Shown piece by piece: positions 3,412 to 32,377 of a stretch of 32,501 nucleotides of DNA. Under the pieces are notes generated by a model. The model did not search any database. It saw only the letters and a list, made by a program, of their open reading frames with translations, and was not told the origin of the DNA. The DNA lies in the NCBI GenBank assembly GCA_026994795.1, contig JALWQB010000005.1, forward strand, positions 1 to 32,501, read 5' to 3'. The translations under genes and the position numbers were made by a program. Source of the stretch: Deltaproteobacteria bacterium. GTDB lineage: Bacteria; Desulfobacterota; Dissulfuribacteria; Dissulfuribacterales; Dissulfuribacteraceae. Numbering within the stretch: position 1 is the stretch's first letter; the number at the start of each line of letters is the position of its first letter.

Positions 3412-4719
<1,308 letters not shown>

Positions 4720-4775
4720 CTAACTATCTAAGTGATATCTGACAATGAGATAAAAGTTATAGCGAAGCTATTCAA

Positions 4776-4836
4776 CCTGCCTTCAACTCATTGACATAAA
4801 AAATATTTTTTATCTATATTTAAAGGCGAAGGCAGG
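4776..4836. repeat. nested inverted repeat between waaA and purA
   Basis: Outer arms CCTGCCTTC (4776-4784) and GAAGGCAGG (4828-4836) are perfect 9-bp complements. Between them lies an 18-bp self-complementary sequence ATAAAAAATATTTTTTAT (4796-4813). In RNA this could form a hairpin that limits read-through from waaA into purA, but there is no classic GC stem followed by a T run. Confidence 0.5.
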
Positions 4837-4845
4837 ATTGAGGTA

Positions 4846-6285
4846 TTATTGCACATTTGTGCATTTTTGACAAGGCAGAGAATCTATTATCTCCAAATAC
4901 TTATCAACGACTCCGCCGTTTCTTATAACAAACTCCCCTGCCCTTTTGCCCATTTTACGCCTCTTAACATTATCAACCACAAGCATATTAAGCATCTCAT
5001 ACATCTGGCGTTCATCACCCGCCCTTAATCCGCCCCCCGCCCTTTCAAGCGCGGTCATTACATCTAAAATTGACTCAATATATGGCCCCGATATCACTGG
5101 AAGCCCCATTGAGGCAGGCTCAATGGCATTATGCCCTCCAACAGGGACAAATGTCCCCCCAATTATTGCGATATCACATATTGAATAAAGCCTTAAAAGC
5201 TCGCCAAGCGTATCAAATATAACCACATCGCAATCATTATAATTGCCTTCCTTATATCCCTCGCCCATTTCCGTGCGAAGCCTGTATGTCAATCCCGCCT
5301 TATCCACAATATCTCCTATCTCTTTCGCCCTTTTAATATCGCGTGGGGCGATAAATAACTGGATAGCTCCTCCATTTATATCTTTTAATCCCTTTTTAAC
5401 CCTTACAAAAGAGCTTATAATTAACTCCTCTTCTCCGCTATGAGTGCTTCCAGCGACAATTTTTACAGTATTGCCCCTTAACCCCAATTCCCTCAGCGTA
5501 TTTTCCCTCTTCATATCATCAATGTATTTGTTTACCTTTGACAGGGCTGCATCAAACTTCATGCTTCCAACTGCCATTATGCCATCCTGAGTTAAACAGC
5601 CAACATGGCTTTTCCCATAAGATACCCTTTTCCATACGGATAAAAGCCTTTCCATATCCCCCATTGACTGCATGGCAACCACTGAAAACGCCCCATATAA
5701 AAGGCGCGCCGCCCATGGAAACCTCTCAAGCCTTGAGGCTGCCCGTTGTGATATGCTCCCGTTTACCATAATCAGCCCTGCGCCACTTTTTCGCATCCTC
5801 CATACAAGGGTTGGCCATATATCCGTCTCAATCAGGATAAATACATCAGGACGCACCATAGCAATCGCCCTGTTTACAATGGGCATGAGGTCAAAAGGAA
5901 GGGCAAAGCGGCCTGAAAGCCACCTCCCCCAGCTCTTCTCAAGCTCTCTGAGCCCGTCAGGGGTAGAAGAACTGCCCCAAATTACTGCATCAGGCCACCT
6001 CACTGCAATCTTTTCAATCAATATTGTCCCGGCACGCACCTCGCCAAAAGAAAGCGCATGAACCCAAAATACCTTTTTCTTACCCTCACCTGCACCTTCC
6101 TTATTTCTCTCCCCTCCAGTCAAGCGCCTTATGTCCTTTATATCTGAAATAAAAAGCCTCTTTAATGTAATTGCCCTATACTTTGGTGAAAAAAGACGCG
6201 GGATGAGGAAAAACAAAAACGCCGGCACAAGCGCTAATATCTGAAATATCCAGTAAAAGTATAATAAAAATGGGGCGCGGGGCAT
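4846..6285 (-). CDS. waaA: 3-deoxy-D-manno-octulosonic acid (Kdo) transferase
   Basis: WaaA (KdtA, GT30 family) adds Kdo from CMP-Kdo to lipid IVA at the inner face of the inner membrane, building the LPS inner core. The protein begins with a hydrophobic anchor (residues about 6-30), then VHALSFGEVRAG with the catalytic Glu, LPFDLMP, and ETDIWPTLVWRMRKSG. The C-terminal Rossmann half has AGSTHSGEEELI, FIAPRD and GGTFVPVGGHNAIEPASMGLPVISGP, the nucleotide-sugar-binding signature. At 479 residues it is somewhat longer than the roughly 420 typical. I place the start at ATG 6285 (MPRAPFLL): a GAGGG ribosome-binding site precedes it, and it lies one base after the stop of the upstream small gene. 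A start at 6342 would only add a basic tail overlapping that gene. Confidence 0.95.
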   Translation of the reverse strand: MPRAPFLLYFYWIFQILALVPAFLFFLIPRLFSPKYRAITLKRLFISDIKDIRRLTGGERNKEGAGEGKKKVFWVHALSFGEVRAGTILIEKIAVRWPDAVIWGSSSTPDGLRELEKSWGRWLSGRFALPFDLMPIVNRAIAMVRPDVFILIETDIWPTLVWRMRKSGAGLIMVNGSISQRAASRLERFPWAARLLYGAFSVVAMQSMGDMERLLSVWKRVSYGKSHVGCLTQDGIMAVGSMKFDAALSKVNKYIDDMKRENTLRELGLRGNTVKIVAGSTHSGEEELIISSFVRVKKGLKDINGGAIQLFIAPRDIKRAKEIGDIVDKAGLTYRLRTEMGEGYKEGNYNDCDVVIFDTLGELLRLYSICDIAIIGGTFVPVGGHNAIEPASMGLPVISGPYIESILDVMTALERAGGGLRAGDERQMYEMLNMLVVDNVKRRKMGKRAGEFVIRNGGVVDKYLEIIDSLPCQKCTNVQ

Positions 6286-6286
6286 A

Positions 6287-6472
6287 CTATCGCCCTCTTT
6301 TCTCGCCCTTTTCCCTCTTCTCATATAGATGACACTCCTCACCTGAAGACTCTTCTACAACAATAAACGGCGCCCTCTTTGCCTTAAACCCGAATGCCCT
6401 GCACCCATAAGGACGCCTCTGGTCCCATGTTATATAATAAAATTTGCAAGTAATACACTTATTATTAGCCAC
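6287..6472 (-). CDS. small four-cysteine protein coupled to waaA
   Basis: A 61-residue protein with C6-x2-C9 near the N-terminus, then YYITWDQRRPYGCRAFGFKAK containing C24, a hydrophobic VVEESSGEEC stretch with C47, and a basic Lys/Arg-rich tail. I recognise the pattern CxxC..YY-x-TWD...P-GCRA-GFK...SSG-x-x-C as recurring in small conserved proteins of Gram-negative bacteria. Databases have given some of them unreliable names, so I assign no function. Four cysteines could hold zinc or an Fe-S cluster. Its TAG stop and the waaA ATG are one base apart, so the two are probably translationally coupled. A promoter lies about 20-30 nt upstream of its ATG. Confidence 0.8.
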   Translation of the reverse strand: MANNKCITCKFYYITWDQRRPYGCRAFGFKAKRAPFIVVEESSGEECHLYEKREKGEKRGR

Positions 6473-6928: not shown

Positions 6929-8863
6929 CTATGTCTTATTCATATCAGCTATAGAAAGCCATTTATCAAATATAGGCATTATATTTCTTACAATTGGCTC
7001 TATATCCTCAGAAAGTGCATTTATCACCTCATGTTTTGGCCTCTTCTGCCTGATAAGCTCTATTATTTTATGCGCCGATTTGTGCAATTCATTGTGTATC
7101 GGGGTAAGCTCATTAATAATCTCTCTCTCTTGCGGAGTGGTTGGCTGATATTCATATAAGAACCTTCCAAGGGCGCACTTGTTGGGGTCAGTCTCAACCC
7201 TTGGCTCCTGATACTTAAATATAGCGCTCAATACATTGCCCACCCACATAAAATGCTGGTTCATTATCGCCTTTATTCTGCAATGAAGATATGAATTTTC
7301 TATAGCTATATCTACAGCAGATGGATCAACATCCGTCTCCTTACTGATCTCTTCCGCCTGTTCACTAATGGTAACAACGGCCTTTCTCGCCATCTCAAGA
7401 GAGCTTCCAAGTATAACAAATTCATCAGCGGCGCTGAGCAAGAGGTCGGTCTTCTCCTTTACAAGCCTTGCTCCGTCTGCGCCCTGCTCCACGCTCTCGT
7501 TTATCTCCCCTACAGTTGCGGTCTGCTCCTCAGTGGCGCTTGCGATGGTATTGGCAAGGTCATTGACCTCAGAGACGATTGAGGTAATAAGCTCCACAGA
7601 CTCCACCGCTGCCTTCGTATCCGTCTGAATTGCCTCAACCATTGCTGTAATCTCCTGAGTTGACTGGGCAGTCTGCTTCGCAAGCTCCTTTACCTCATTG
7701 GCCACAACTGCAAAGCCCTTTCCTGCCTCGCCCGCCCTTGCCGCCTCTATTGTGGCATTAAGGGCAAGCAGGTTTGTCTGCTCCGCAATGCTGTTAATCA
7801 CCTGAATGATATTATCTATCTTTTGAGAGCTTTCCCCGAGCCTTTGTATAATCTCAGATGATTCCTGCGCCCTCACCTGAGCCTCATTGGTCCTTTCCGC
7901 CGTTGTTGAGACGCTTTTTGCAATCTCGTTTGTGGCAATGGTCATTTCAGAGACAGATTTTGACACTGTCTCAAGGCTTTCCGCCGCCATTGTTGAGGCC
8001 TGGGAGACATCTTCCGCCATTTGATTGAGCTTATTGGAATGCTCCATAATCTGAGATGCGGAGTCCTGAACAACATTTTCAACGCCTTTAAGCGAATCAT
8101 TAGAGACAAATGTTGTAAGCATCTGGCTCCCTACAGTGGTAACAAGGCAGTTATACGCCCTGTTGAGCTTGCTTATCTCATCAGGCCCATTTATATCCAA
8201 TGTCTTATCAAAATGACCTTCAGACGCCCTTATAAGGACCGCCACTGCATTATTAAGAGGAGACAATACAAATTTTTTCAACAGTATAATGGAGATAACA
8301 AACAGGACGAACCCGATAAGGAGCATAACGACAAGAACCTCCAGTAAATAGGTAACCTTTTTATTATTTATAGATTCATAACGTTTTGTTACCGCATTCG
8401 CCTGCTTTAATAAAGGGATATTATTTTCTGTAATATAAGATATGGCCTTATCAATCTCTTCCTTATCTGAAGTGTCTTTTAAGGCAATAATGGCATTTTT
8501 AAATGGCATCCACATCTCTTTTAGCCGCCTTAGCTCTCTAATAAGCTCATCATCTGTTGGAGCGGCAATCTTCATCTCATCGCTCCCATTCATCAGCGCA
8601 TTGAGGCTCTTGTCAAATAGCCCCATAGACGCCTCTAAGCTGTTTAACCATTTCCCGTCCTTATTTGTTGTTATATATAAAAAGGATTCTTTTGCCATCT
8701 TTTGACTCAGCATCCTCTGCCTTCCCGAAACATTAATTGCAACAGCATCTCCCTTTTGCTTGGATACAGTAAAAAATATATAGGCCACAGAGATAAGGTC
8801 AGTCATAAATAATGTTGCAAGTAGCACACTGATAATAACTGAAATCTTATAAAAGCGCTTCAT
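6929..8863 (-). CDS. methyl-accepting chemotaxis protein with PilJ-type sensor and CZB domain
   Basis: A 644-residue chemoreceptor. TM1 spans about residues 8-33 and TM2 about 172-197. The periplasmic region between them contains [18 protein letters not shown] (43-60), the signature of the PilJ/NarX-like N-terminal sensor fold. A HAMP region follows (about 198-250), then a long helical signalling domain with the conserved hairpin [23 protein letters not shown] (361-383). The C-terminus holds a chemoreceptor zinc-binding (CZB) domain with likely ligands H537, C563 (KCALGRFL), H590 and H594. CZB domains bind zinc and have been tied to metal, pH or hypochlorite sensing. The start has AAAGGAGG 10 nt upstream. 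The gene is monocistronic and is preceded by a textbook FNR-type promoter. The absence of che genes nearby means it feeds a pathway encoded elsewhere. Confidence 0.95.
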
Positions 8864-24337: not shown

Positions 24338-24964
24338 TTATGGAGTTAATCCAAGCAATAGACGTATAACAGCGTTGGCCTGATGAGAAAACGCAATCCC
24401 CACCCTTGTCGCCATTAAGGGCGTATCAGGGCCAACCTCTGTCTTTCCATCTCCCACTATATATAAATTATCGCTATGCCTTTTGGTCTTTATAGTGCTG
24501 GCCTTACCATATCCTGCTATGCCAGAGGCAGCTATTATGGGTTTATTCGGGTGCCTCAACCTCACTGCCTCTATTAGCATAGCCTTTTCTTCTGCCTTGT
24601 CAAATGCCTCCACTAATACATCTACAGGGTCAAATATAGATATATTCTCATGAGTAACCCGCAAACAATGCGCCTCTATCTTTAAATAGGGATTGATGCT
24701 TTTAAGGTTTTGTGTTATCGCCTCTGTCTTCTTAATGCCTATCTGTTCAATAAAATATTGCTGTCTGTGGATATTAGAAGGGTCAACAATATCAAAATCA
24801 GCCAAGACAAACGCCCCAACGCCTGCCCTTGCAAGCAAGACAGCGACGCCTGAACCAAGACCCCCTAAACCTGCTATGCCTACAGTGGCGCCTTTAAGCC
24901 TTTCGTGAACTCTAAGCCCATGCCTCTCAATAAAGATATTATCAAATTCCCGCTCTGTAAGCAC
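24338..24964 (-). CDS. thiF: ThiF-family adenylyltransferase
   Basis: ThiF adenylates the ThiS C-terminus. The 208-residue E1-like protein has the nucleotide-binding GIAGLGGLGSGVAVLLARAGVG (31-52), VLADFDIVDPSNIHRQQYF with the conserved Asp/Arg residues, IGIKKTEA and the ASGIAGYGKA segment. It belongs to the short class found in thiFSGH clusters of anaerobes, lacking the zinc CxxC pairs of E. coli ThiF. GTG start with only a weak AAGGG site nearby. It is 59 bp upstream of thiS and is probably the first thi gene of the operon; the rubredoxin gene lies 128 bp further upstream on the same strand. No TPP riboswitch was recognised in that gap. Confidence 0.92.
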   Translation of the reverse strand: MLTEREFDNIFIERHGLRVHERLKGATVGIAGLGGLGSGVAVLLARAGVGAFVLADFDIVDPSNIHRQQYFIEQIGIKKTEAITQNLKSINPYLKIEAHCLRVTHENISIFDPVDVLVEAFDKAEEKAMLIEAVRLRHPNKPIIAASGIAGYGKASTIKTKRHSDNLYIVGDGKTEVGPDTPLMATRVGIAFSHQANAVIRLLLGLTP

Positions 24965-25092
24965 ACCCTTTATAATGCCTCTGCCTCTTATATATCATTA
25001 TATAATTCTATCCTCTTTACCCTGTCTTATACTGTAAGCAATCTATTAGCAATAATTATGGAAACAAAGAATTTTTTCTCCATTGTTTTTTG

Positions 25093-25251
25093 CTAATCAG
25101 CAGGATAAAAATTCTCTTTTTCTGCCCCGCACACAGGACATACCCAGTCTTCTGGAAGGTCTTCAAAAGAGGTCCCCGGCTCTATCCCATGCTCAATATC
25201 GCCTTCTTCAGGGTCATAAACATAACCACAAGGACATTCCATCTTTTGCAT
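25093..25251 (-). CDS. rubredoxin with CxC first knuckle
   Basis: A 52-residue rubredoxin, a small one-iron electron carrier of anaerobes and microaerophiles. After [18 protein letters not shown] come [24 protein letters not shown] and a short tail. The second iron knuckle is the usual CPVCG (C38, C41). The first is C6-P-C8-G, one residue shorter than the usual C-x2-C-G. The start ATG has GGAGGG 6 nt upstream. It lies between the hemerythrin-chemoreceptor gene and thiF, all on the minus strand. Rubredoxins commonly pass electrons to oxygen- or superoxide-reducing enzymes, none of which are in the window. Confidence 0.93.
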
Positions 25252-25318
25252 ATTTTTCCCTCCTTTAAGCTATTTTTTATCTGTTTTATATTATTAAGTT
25301 ATATAAATTACTTTATGT

Positions 25319-27691
25319 TTATCTCAATCCCTTTTCATTTAAAAATTTGCTATATTTTTTATCAGTTATACATATATGATTTGAAAGCCAGTCCCTTAAA
25401 AACTTTAAAAGCTCTATTGAGACTGTTGTCTTGCCAGAATCAAAGGCATCTTTAAAATCAAGTACCTTTTTCGCAAGGTCTTGATGTATCTTTATGTGAG
25501 CATCCTTTTCAGGATAATCATATTCTTTAAAATATTTTTCCTCTGTCCCAAAGTGATATACCGTATATTCAATAAGCTCATTCAATATATTAGATATTAC
25601 AGATTTGCTCTTCCCTGTTGAAAATGCACTATGAAGGGTATTTACCATATTGATAAGTTTTTTGTGCTGTTCATCTATCTCCTTAATATTTACTGAGAAT
25701 TGAGGACCCCACTGAAGGAATTGAGAAGATGAAGACGATTGAGTAGCTTTTGCTCTATCTGCAAATTTTTCTTTGCCCATTATAGAAACTGTCTTTCCCC
25801 TTAACATTCCATCCCATTCAAAAAGTAATCCTATGACATTATTAAAGTATGGCGCTATATTTTCATTAAAATAGGATATTACCTCTTCTCTTGACCTTCC
25901 CTGAGATATGAGGGATTGAAGCTCAACCACATTTTTGTGCATTGTATTATGCTCTGGAATAAGCTTTGCCATAATTCCCTTTATAGCTGGTTCAGTTGGG
26001 GTATAACTGGATAAAAATTTCCCCAGTCCACACTTAGAGGGGTCAGTTACTACCTCAGGCGGCACCATTGATATTATACCTGCAATAACCTTCTGTCTCC
26101 ACTGAAGGTGTTGAAATAATGCCATATTTACCTTGAGGGCCTCAGGCAAGTATTTCATAAGCCTCTTGCTAAGCTCTGTATCAACTACAAACTGGGCAGC
26201 AAGGATGTTGGACTCTTCCTTAAACAGCTCCATACCCTTTTCACATACCTTAAGCTCACTGTTCATGTCAGTAAGCTCATGGATATCTTCCGTAAGGATA
26301 GACGCATTTTCTTCAAGCCCCGTTACCAGCCCGCTTACATGTGATACATTTTCTGTAATCTCTGATATAGTAGCGGTCTGCTCTTCTGTAGCGCTGGCTA
26401 TTGTATTGGCAAGGTCAGTTACCGCCTCAATAGAACTTGCGATAGTAGAAACGGATTTTACCGCGCTTTTGGTATTTGCCTGTATCTCTGTAACCATCTG
26501 GGTTATCTCTTCTGTCGCCTGAGATGTCTGCTTTGCCAGTTCTTTCACCTCATTCGCCACTACCGCAAAGCCCTTTCCAGCCTCGCCTGCCCTTGCAGCC
26601 TCAATAGTCGCATTTAATGCAAGAAGATTGGTCTGCTCTGCAATAGCGCTTATTACCTGAATTACGCTCCCTATCTTTTCTGAACTCTCATTAAGCCCCT
26701 CAATAACCTCATTGGCCTGAAACGCTAATGACCGCGCATCATCTGCCTGTTGAGCGGCCTCCTGCACATGCTGAGCTATTTCATTTGCCGCTATTGAGAG
26801 GTCTTGCATTGCCTTTGTAACGGATTCAATATTTTGGCTTGATTCTGTAGAGGCATTTGAAAGGTCGCTTGATACTGAGCTTACCTTATCTGTAAATCCT
26901 CCAATATTGAAAACAGCCTTTGACAATGCCTCTTTTACATTATCAATGAGCTCATCTTGAGAGCTTATGGAGGAAATCATATTTATTATGCCTGCGCTAA
27001 AATAATTATATACCTCTATAAGATGTCTTACCTCGCTTGGCCCGTATGGGGTGAGAGAATGCGTAAAACTGCCTGATGACGCCTCTCCTAAAATATCCAT
27101 GACCGATTTTAACGGCTTCATAACAAATCTTGAATTAAAAAAGGTAACAAACATTATAAAAAATACGCCTCCAATAAGCAAAGTAAATAAAAAAACATGG
27201 TAAACGGAAGAATAGTTTTCATATACGTTATGGAGTTTCTTAGAAAGGGCTTCTATCTCAGCCTTTAACATTATAGTCTGAGATGATATTTTATCGGCTG
27301 TTTCATTAGAATAATTTTGAATAAGATCGTCTATATCATCTAAAAGGGCTCTTTCTAATCTTAAAATCTTATCAAATGATAATTTTCCAGAAATATCCCT
27401 TAAAAATTGGTCTATATCAGATTTTATCTTATAAAGTTCATCATTAACTTTATTAGTTTCCCCTTTACTTTCCATCAGTTCTATCTTTTCAATCTTTCCT
27501 TCAAGAGCGGTGAGCATAATAATATTTTTTGTTAGTATCTCTTTTTGATTGAAAATATCTTCCGTCTTCTCTTGATAATAAAGGGCGCTTATTATTGCAA
27601 TCAATGTAGCCGCGAACATAACCGCAACTATCCCAGGTATTGCTATCTTTAAAGAATAGACCTTCCTTATTATTTCTCTTATTATCTTCAT
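25319..27691 (-). CDS. chemoreceptor with CZB and C-terminal hemerythrin domains
   Basis: A 790-residue methyl-accepting chemotaxis protein. TM1 covers about residues 15-38 and TM2 about 164-186, enclosing a helical four-helix-type periplasmic sensor. HAMP (about 187-240) and the signalling domain follow, with the hairpin [23 protein letters not shown] (352-374). A CZB zinc domain has likely ligands H528, C554 (KCGLGKFL), H581 and H585. After a Ser-rich linker (650-656) comes a complete bacteriohemerythrin with ligands H676, H713, E717 or E718, H732, H736, H772 and D777. Hemerythrins bind O2 at a di-iron site, so this receptor probably combines metal or oxidant and oxygen sensing for aerotaxis-like behaviour. 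The signalling core is very close to that of the receptor at 6929-8863. Confidence 0.95.
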
Positions 27692-27788
27692 TAAGAATAT
27701 AAGCCTCCCCTATTAAAATAAAATCATAATAATTTAGTATAATTATAAAATAATTATCTTAAATAATTATCTTTAAATAAGACAATAC

Positions 27789-27808
27789 TTAATTAGGCGT
27801 CTAATTAA
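27789..27808. promoter_or_regulatory. perfect inverted repeat, possible operator
   Basis: TTAATTAG and CTAATTAA are exact complements separated by GCGT. The site lies in the leader of the hemerythrin chemoreceptor, about 30-50 nt after the predicted transcription start. It could be a repressor site or an RNA hairpin. The regulator is unknown. Confidence 0.45.
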
Positions 27809-27843
27809 TAATCTTACTATACGAATTTGGCCTTGCGGCTCTA

Positions 27844-27872
27844 TTATTACTATTAATATCTCCTTGCGTCAA
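27844..27872 (-). promoter_or_regulatory. probable promoter of the hemerythrin chemoreceptor
   Basis: On the minus strand, TTGACG (27867-27872) and TAATAA (27844-27849) are 17 nt apart. They lie between the aldolase stop and the chemoreceptor start, giving a leader of about 145 nt. Confidence 0.4.
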
Positions 27873-27896
27873 TGTGAAAAAGGAGCCTATATTAAA

Positions 27897-28520
27897 TTAC
27901 GTTATATCAGGAAATTTTAAATCATTTTTAAGAAGATAGGTTAAAATTGTCGTCTTCGCGCAGCTCTCGACCGCTTCAGCAAGGTTAAAGGCAGCTTCAA
28001 GATTTTTACCGCAAGCCACCATGCCATGTCTCATCATTATACATACATTAGGGGGGTCAGGGCATTTAGAGAGGCTATGCCCTACCTCAAGGGCAAGCTC
28101 CTTAGAGCCAGGCGGATAATATGGAATTACCTCAACCCTTCCTATCACATAGGCCGCTTCTATAAGAAGCGCGGGGCCGTCTATGGTGCGCTGAGACAGA
28201 TAAAGGGCATTTGTCCAAGGGGCGTGACTATGAATTATCGCCTTTATATCTGGGCGTCTTTTATATACCTCTATATGAAGCGTAAGCTCTGAAGTAGGCG
28301 TCTTCCCCGAAATATGCCCTGCCCTCCCCCCGTTTAACTTTACCGCTGATATATCTTCACACCTTAGAAACCCCTTGTTATATCCTGTAGGAGTAATCAA
28401 AATCACATCATCATAGGAAATTTTTAGGCTTATATTACCATCAGTTCCTGATATAAGACCTCTATTGTATAATATTTTTCCTATATTACATATTTTCTTT
28501 CTTAATGGCAAATAATTCAT
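27897..28520 (-). CDS. class II aldolase/adducin-family protein (FucA-like)
   Basis: A 207-residue zinc-dependent aldolase of the L-fuculose-1-phosphate aldolase type. Visible features are GLISGTDGNISLK, the phosphate-binding ITPTGYNKG, the catalytic Glu in TSELTLH (E78), zinc ligands H97 and H99 in IIHSHAPWTNAL, and H165 in MRHGMVACG. Relatives act on fuculose-, rhamnulose-, ribulose- and 5-deoxy- or methylthio-pentulose-phosphates, so the substrate is not determined; a role in salvage of SAM by-products is possible. The start is placed at ATG 28520 (MNYLPLRKK), 8 nt after GGAGG. A TTG at 28535 would read through that ribosome-binding site. It is divergent from the porin gene. Confidence 0.88.
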   Translation of the reverse strand: MNYLPLRKKICNIGKILYNRGLISGTDGNISLKISYDDVILITPTGYNKGFLRCEDISAVKLNGGRAGHISGKTPTSELTLHIEVYKRRPDIKAIIHSHAPWTNALYLSQRTIDGPALLIEAAYVIGRVEVIPYYPPGSKELALEVGHSLSKCPDPPNVCIMMRHGMVACGKNLEAAFNLAEAVESCAKTTILTYLLKNDLKFPDIT

Positions 28521-31187: not shown

Positions 31188-32377
31188 GGCTCTCGCTATC
31201 TTCTGAGGTTTATATATGCCTCCTCAGAAAAATTTGTGGGTTATATCCGGCACGGGTAGTTTTCCAAGTGAGTGATATAATGCTACTTCTCGATATAAAT
31301 CACTTCTAAATCCATACGATTTTCTGAAGGTCAATTTTGCTTTGTTGTTGAATCCCTCTACTGTGCCTGAGGAATACTCTTTCTTAGCACGAAAATAATT
31401 CAAGATTAACTCTTTATGAGAACGAATCATTTTAACGAATTTATTCATTTGAGGCAGATCATGGTGGTCCATTACCTCTTTTGTCCATTCATCTATAAAA
31501 CAAGACGCTGAAGCAACATCAGGACAATCCCATAAATCATCAAAGGCCTCTTTTGCAAGATAGGCTTTTACTGTTACAAGATTCAACTGTAATAGCTCTT
31601 TGAGCCTGTTTATAGCTTTTTCTTTAAGATTAGATGCCTTTTTAAGAAATATCCACCTTGTATTTTTTAAATAAGCAGGTTGTTTCTCTTCTTTTAAACG
31701 AACCACCTCTTGACGACGAACATCGTCAACAGCCTTATTTAAATGAGCTACGATGTGAAAACGATCAAGGACATGGACTGCTTGACTGAAACGTTCCTTG
31801 ATTACTTCCAAATATGCCTTCCACATATCTGAACATACAAATTCTATCTGCTTACAACGTTTCTCTCCCAGAAAATCACAAAATCGATCCAAAATTGATT
31901 TGGAACGCCCTTTTCCTAACCATAAAAGACGTCTTTGACCTACATCCAACTGATACACAAGAGTCAGGTATTGATGACCCTTCTTGTACTGTATCTCATC
32001 TACTCCTATTGCCTTGATACCATCTAAATTACGATGAGCTAAACCCCAATTGACCACCCAGGTAACTGCTGATGCCACCATATCCCACGAAACATGAAAT
32101 ATACTGGCCACATCCTTCCATGAAAGATATCTTGCCCATTGCCCTAAAAAACAGGCCAGTTGAATAGTCACCGGGCCCTTGCCTGTTGACCAAGGCACTA
32201 ACTCTACTTTCACTCCTTTACAATGAACGCAATTCACACGTCTCATACTATAAAGAAGAACTACCATTATCCCCCATATAGGAGGTAATATGAACTCCCT
32301 GACTGGAAGATGATCGTATGTGCTGCCAGGCTTTTTACAGCACGAACAAATAGGATGGCTGTTCTTCCTGGGAACAA
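31188..32377 (-). mobile_element. ISL3-family insertion sequence, truncated
   Basis: The element holds the ISL3 transposase gene. Its left edge is probably near 31188, where GGCTCTCGCTATC resembles ISL3 terminal repeats, which often begin GGCTCT or GGGTCT. An inverted repeat CTGAGG/CCTCAG (31203-31227) spans the transposase stop. The right end is lost where an IS3-family element begins at about 32378, so the element can no longer move by itself. Confidence 0.7.
31224..32267 (-). CDS. ISL3-family transposase, 5' end lost
   Basis: ISL3 transposases are DDE enzymes. The frame from ATG 32267 codes for 347 residues with GVDEIQYKKGH (first Asp), VCSDMWKAYLEV (second Asp), VLDRFHIVAHLNKAVDDVRR and EYSSGTVEGFNNKAKL (final Glu). 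The same frame stays open upstream to about 32377 and encodes the family's missing N-terminal part, PRKNSHPICSCCKKPGSTYD followed by PVREFILPPIWG, including a zinc-finger pair, but no start codon. Compared with intact relatives about 35 N-terminal residues are gone, replaced by the IS3-family sequence. A protein starting at 32267 would lack half the zinc finger, so it is probably inactive. Confidence 0.85.
   Translation of the reverse strand: MVVLLYSMRRVNCVHCKGVKVELVPWSTGKGPVTIQLACFLGQWARYLSWKDVASIFHVSWDMVASAVTWVVNWGLAHRNLDGIKAIGVDEIQYKKGHQYLTLVYQLDVGQRRLLWLGKGRSKSILDRFCDFLGEKRCKQIEFVCSDMWKAYLEVIKERFSQAVHVLDRFHIVAHLNKAVDDVRRQEVVRLKEEKQPAYLKNTRWIFLKKASNLKEKAINRLKELLQLNLVTVKAYLAKEAFDDLWDCPDVASASCFIDEWTKEVMDHHDLPQMNKFVKMIRSHKELILNYFRAKKEYSSGTVEGFNNKAKLTFRKSYGFRSDLYREVALYHSLGKLPVPDITHKFF

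Follow-up and report, generated by a model that had tools for sequence, protein, structure and literature searches.

What does a chemoreceptor sense when its cytoplasmic tail appears to hold two different metal-binding domains, a CZB zinc domain and a hemerythrin (Hr) domain? The question is raised by a gene in the window, that is, the whole stretch of 32,501 nucleotides that was analysed, from contig JALWQB010000005.1 of a Deltaproteobacteria bacterium. The gene (25319..27691, minus strand) encodes a protein of 790 aa, from an ATG start, with GGGGAGG approximately 13 nt on its 5' side, to a stop codon at 25319-25321. We favour, with moderate confidence, the reading that its product is a DcrH-like receptor for oxygen or redox taxis, in which the CZB domain would sit on the signalling coil, a tethered di-iron domain would provide the O2 input, a rubredoxin would reset the sensor, and the response would probably be avoidance.

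Domain order and metal-site signatures

Two hydrophobic, putative membrane segments were recognised by eye, at residues ~14-37 (27581..27652) and ~166-188 (27128..27196), and between them lies a rapidly diverging periplasmic region (residues 39-165, 27197..27577). Further along the chain, all on the minus strand, follow a HAMP-like region (residues 186-233, 26993..27136), the MCP signalling domain (residues 308-452, 26336..26770), the CZB domain (residues ~505-635, 25787..26179), a linker (residues 634-655, 25727..25792) and the Hr domain (residues 661-790, 25322..25711). The search of the domain architecture proposed in an earlier note, made from the DNA alone, placed MCPsignal (PF00015; 127.3 bits, cut-off 34.6, E 7.2e-37) and Hemerythrin (PF01814, residues 669-780; 60.2 bits, cut-off 25.3) above the Pfam cut-offs, and HAMP (24.4 bits, cut-off 25) and CZB (residues 528-590; 24.7 bits, E 3e-5, curated cut-off 29.4) slightly below them. 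As read from its sequence, the protein is likely a membrane-anchored receptor with an inner tail that carries a zinc-sensing domain and then an oxygen-binding di-iron domain.

The ligand positions of both domains were assigned from CZB and Hr motifs and from two published works (PMC12871147 and PMC9388753), and residue numbers correspond to the alignment numbering plus 494. The CZB domain holds a 3His/1Cys set (H528, C554, H581 and H585), and the Hr domain five His, one Glu and one Asp (H676, H713, E717, H732, H736, H772 and D777). All 11 residues were invariant in the eight sequences aligned (8/8), which bears out the earlier claim that a full CZB set and seven Hr ligands occur in one protein; no ligand was lost on closer alignment, and both metal-site signatures are kept.

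The seven Hr ligands are kept in all 11 complete Hr domains of the family, the Hr domain of L062 being interrupted by a contig end. Moreover, a profile search matched the DcrH hemerythrin in the PDB (E 9.5e-36), and the fold agreed with the DcrH Hr crystal structure with a TM of 0.90 over the target. An AlphaFold model of the CZB and Hr domains together reached an overall pLDDT of 81.6 and a pTM of 0.43, with pLDDT below 50 in the linker (model residues 190-211, block means of 32), where identity among orthologues is only 0-24%. The model thus predicts that CZB and Hr are each folded and that the tether between them is disordered, and the disordered linker and the pTM together mean that no fixed contact between CZB and Hr is predicted. 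A disordered and poorly conserved tether would also suit an Hr domain that does not signal, but works as an O2 buffer or scavenger shielding the CZB thiolate and the receptor, with CZB alone reporting the redox state; the near-identical paralogue in genome G101, which has CZB and lacks Hr, points the same way. However, receptors of the plain MCP-Hr type, with no CZB, are frequent, so that in many receptors Hr serves on its own, and one di-iron site per chain would be small for scavenging; we regard this explanation as unlikely.

We then considered the CZB domain, which in the favoured oxygen/redox receptor would be a working zinc site. The CZB domain of the orthologue L058 likewise scored under the Pfam cut-off, and those of G101 (35.2 bits) and L045 (34.9 bits) scored over it, which lends support to the weak CZB match of the window protein. 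A family profile of eight sequences matched the DgcZ CZB crystal structure 3t9o (E 0.0017), and a PDB search with the window CZB sequence alone returned only unrelated helical proteins and no CZB structure. The AlphaFold model of the domain (pLDDT 89.3) had 3t9o_B, the DgcZ CZB, as its top Foldseek match (E 5.5e-3); in VIA-align the CZB comparison reached Z 11.8 at rank 12, other four-helix bundles scoring equally high. The two scores below the cut-off would fit a DcrH-like O2 receptor in which CZB has lost zinc sensing and merely connects the coil to Hr as a structural joint. Against this, the 3His/1Cys set is invariant in 12/12 orthologues, the very divergent L117 included, and C554 lies at the start of a short helix in the model, the same place as that described for TlpD C340 (PMC12871147), which makes the joint a rather improbable reading.

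The region-by-region comparison of the window protein with G029 and G181 further indicates where the input of the oxygen/redox receptor would lie. Identity to G029 and G181, respectively, was 14% and 14% in the periplasmic region, 65% and 65% in the signalling domain, 51% and 53% in CZB, 24% and 20% in the linker, and 69% and 62% in Hr. In G269, also aligned, the periplasmic region is absent (10/127 positions aligned); the L117 open frame is of similar size (653 aa vs 657 aa in G269), and it begins with hydrophobic segments. As Hr and CZB are far better conserved than the periplasmic region, the conserved input is probably cytoplasmic. A periplasmic main sensor, with CZB and Hr merely tuning, could be read from the PilJ-type periplasmic domains of L045 (38.0 bits) and of the sister receptor described below, but is hardly probable given the ~14% identity among closest relatives, the deletion in G269, and the absence of any Pfam match in this region of the window protein. 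A cytoplasmic redox or oxygen input is supported by the family conservation, the diverged or deleted periplasmic domain and an adjoining rubredoxin gene, and the receptor might, as the earlier note proposed, integrate the zinc or oxidant state with oxygen.

The same note had described a sister receptor in the window sharing the core without Hr, and such a receptor is indeed present (6929..8863, minus strand): Pfam found PilJ (73.6 bits), HAMP, MCPsignal and CZB (39.4 bits) in that order, and no Hr. It is 38% identical to the CZB-Hr receptor over residues 130-628, and, together with orthologues of its own, it forms a different clade, which marks it as an old paralogue.

Occurrence and ancestry of the CZB-Hr pairing

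In a survey of 297 genomes from the phylum of the window organism, 149 matched the C-terminal 296 residues of the receptor, nearly all of the matches listed being to Hr only, and eight (8/297, own genome included) hold CZB and Hr in one frame. A scan of named genomes, covering the best 80 of 440 relatives, added L059, L061, L062 and L117; L058 and L060 are repeats of G181 and G155 and were not counted anew. Within those best 80 of 440, both domains in the order of the window occurred only in records of Deltaproteobacteria, Thermodesulfobacteriaceae, Thermodesulfobacteriales and Thermodesulfatator. The identical domain order in 12 genomes rules out a chance fusion or an assembly artefact. Outside the phylum, 113 of 295 genomes of the L066 phylum (Nitrospirae) matched, and no CZB was found upstream of Hr in the best multi-domain matches (L142-L145, L147 and L148), which are plain MCP-Hr proteins. 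In viral contigs, 66 stretches fitted the patterns and none was confirmed.

A tree of the receptor core, built with Hr removed from 22 sequences (12 with Hr and 10 with CZB only), joined the 12 Hr-bearing receptors and an Hr-less paralogue of G101 in one clade (bootstrap/SH-aLRT 98/99); L117 and L061_c are on long branches. Two changes explain this tree, a single gain of Hr and a single loss, the latter in the Hr-less paralogue, which shares its genome with a nearly identical Hr-bearing receptor. The two G101 genes (L047 6747-9251 and L049 3477-5486) are near-identical from approximately the second membrane segment through CZB; what sets them apart is the periplasmic region and the presence or absence of Hr. 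The pattern resembles gene conversion of the receptor core. A tree of Hr domains alone (125 rows, few columns) grouped 11 Hr domains of this architecture with one outsider, L080 (SH-aLRT 84). The latter (4495-6408) is an MCP-like Hr protein without CZB from a Bacteroidetes MAG, with an Hr that groups within the window family, and its placement may reflect horizontal transfer of Hr.

A second architecture was found in ten receptors (L038, L055, L056, L064, L065, L088, L090, L114, L156 and L157), in which CZB lies close to the N terminus, ahead of the HAMP region, and Hr is C-terminal. CZB scored over the Pfam cut-off in four of the ten (two in G106, one in G073 and one in G046). Since it precedes the HAMP region, CZB is probably periplasmic in these receptors. 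CZB and Hr have thus come together in chemoreceptors at least twice, in the second case probably on opposite sides of the membrane. Among the matches listed, seven of 65 long CZB open reading frames carry Hr, against approximately 2.2 expected (Fisher p 0.004), which, with counts made by hand, kinship ignored and long frames taken as receptors, weakly suggests a statistical link between the two domains in receptors. In addition, the MCP hairpin motif was present in 35 of the 37 listed long Hr frames without a CZB match, some proteins being repeated from overlapping loci.

Related arrangements were also encountered. Divergent receptors of family f35 beside an Hr gene have a CZB-like tail that lacks the Cys, and were not counted as CZB plus Hr. 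In genus g38, receptor-like genes with such a Cys-less tail (L153 3953-6028 and L154 3898-5984) have an Hr gene of the same orientation upstream, the frames nearly touching, and G100 has a similar pair by coordinates. A 768-aa open frame with three tandem CZB repeats near its N terminus was seen in L174 (1941-4244). With regard to the window family itself, the fact that the pairing is kept suggests that the cell may steer by combining two oxygen or redox readings.

Neighbouring genes and proposed working

A gene for a 52-aa rubredoxin (25093..25251, minus strand; Pfam Rubredoxin 80.2 bits) lies 67 nt 3' of the receptor gene, and no terminator-like site was found within 24900-28000. The same succession occurs in L058/G181 (rubredoxin at L058 5486-5644, 60-nt gap), where the remaining neighbours are different, and no rubredoxin gene lies beside the G029 orthologue; rubredoxin thus adjoins the receptor in one of two family relatives. 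The window and L058 rubredoxins have C-P-C in the first metal knuckle, a spacing common to both; the usual spacing is C-x-x-C. In Thermodesulfatator-type genomes, a hybrid-cluster (prismane) gene stands upstream of the receptor, recognised by Pfam in L044 (4932-6569) and L061 (2782-4410) and by its first residues in L062 (703-2340), which hints at NO or redox stress.

Regarding the genome that carries the window, two matches to CheA, three to flagellin and a strong one to cytochrome bd were obtained, and no match to COX1 (heme-copper oxidase) in the 96% complete assembly. This gene set would fit a motile anaerobe that is exposed to oxygen. Elsewhere in this genome, a stand-alone Hr gene was seen close to a further MCP gene of the same orientation (L053, contig C133, 12110-14651), and an ISL3-type transposase gene (31224-32267, minus strand) lies in the window near the contig end.

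In the favoured reading of a DcrH-like oxygen/redox receptor, the membrane-anchored protein would sense from the cytoplasm. CZB directly follows the signalling coiled coil, and its zinc occupancy would shift the kinase-control tip, as in TlpD. At the di-iron site of the tethered Hr, O2 would either bind or oxidise the site, and this change of state would be handed to the bundle of CZB and coil; the adjoining rubredoxin would then bring the oxidised site back to its reduced state, resetting the sensor. The output would be O2 avoidance, which is likely because the organism is anaerobe-like, by its cytochrome bd, flagellins and CheA and the lack of a heme-copper oxidase match; the direction of taxis is nevertheless unsure, as the CZB receptor McpA mediates attraction to O2 (PMC13370339, a preprint). 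What the analysis shows is the domains, their ligands, the conservation, the single origin of the family, the rubredoxin neighbour and, in the model, the disordered tether. Metal loading, O2 binding, coupling, the role of rubredoxin and the direction of taxis are all points that we infer.

In a more specific version, which we consider improbable, the two domains would form a relay: O2 would react at the Hr di-iron site, an oxidising equivalent, in the form of peroxide or of a redox-driven shift in the tethered domain, would reach the Cys-Zn switch of CZB, and rubredoxin would reset the iron. If true, the receptor would hold an in-built converter of O2 into a thiolate signal for chemotaxis, the coil reading the zinc/thiolate signal.

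Comparison with known systems

Each half of the receptor, MCP-Hr and CZB receptor, is of a known kind, and the pairing is unreported within the literature that we searched. PMC9665402 and PMC8846402 came up for the two domains together, and no description of the pairing was seen in the passages covered. The 2021 census of 10,140 CZB sequences (PMC8262984) describes membrane-bound and putative periplasmic CZB MCPs, in line with the CZB found here on a membrane-bound MCP, and lists globin among the accompanying domains; its main text makes no mention of hemerythrin. MCP-Hr receptors are given as the commonest known Hr fusions in the 2016 Hr census (PMC4919030), and CZB plus Hr may figure among the 56 architectures in its supplement.

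A close likeness is to DcrH from Desulfovibrio vulgaris, a membrane MCP whose C terminus forms a cytoplasmic Hr with the same seven ligands (PMC9388753). As described there, DcrH is a HAMP-MCP-Hr protein without CZB, whereas the window receptor has CZB between the coil and Hr, and also differs from DcrH as described by its disordered tether and adjoining rubredoxin gene. DcrH-Hr binds O2 with a Kd of 0.3 uM and autooxidises quickly (PMC9388753), and avoidance has been proposed for DcrH in reviews (PMC9388753; PMC13401364). TlpD from H. pylori (PMC12871147) and McpA from Salmonella (PMC13370339) also have CZB after the signalling coil, the former with the same 3His/1Cys set; both are described without Hr, which here lies beyond CZB. 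In addition, the window receptor has two putative membrane segments, while TlpD-like soluble CZB receptors have none.

These comparisons bear on how Hr is coupled to MCPs, DcrH included, a question that the same reviews state to be open (PMC9388753; PMC13401364): Hr is here placed beyond CZB, a domain with a zinc site linked to the kinase tip by a coupling now solved in TlpD (PMC12871147). The G101 pair offers a natural comparison with and without Hr. Moreover, should CZB receptors themselves be aerotaxis receptors, as put forward in a 2026 preprint on McpA (PMC13370339), the window receptor may obtain two readings of O2, each by its own chemistry.
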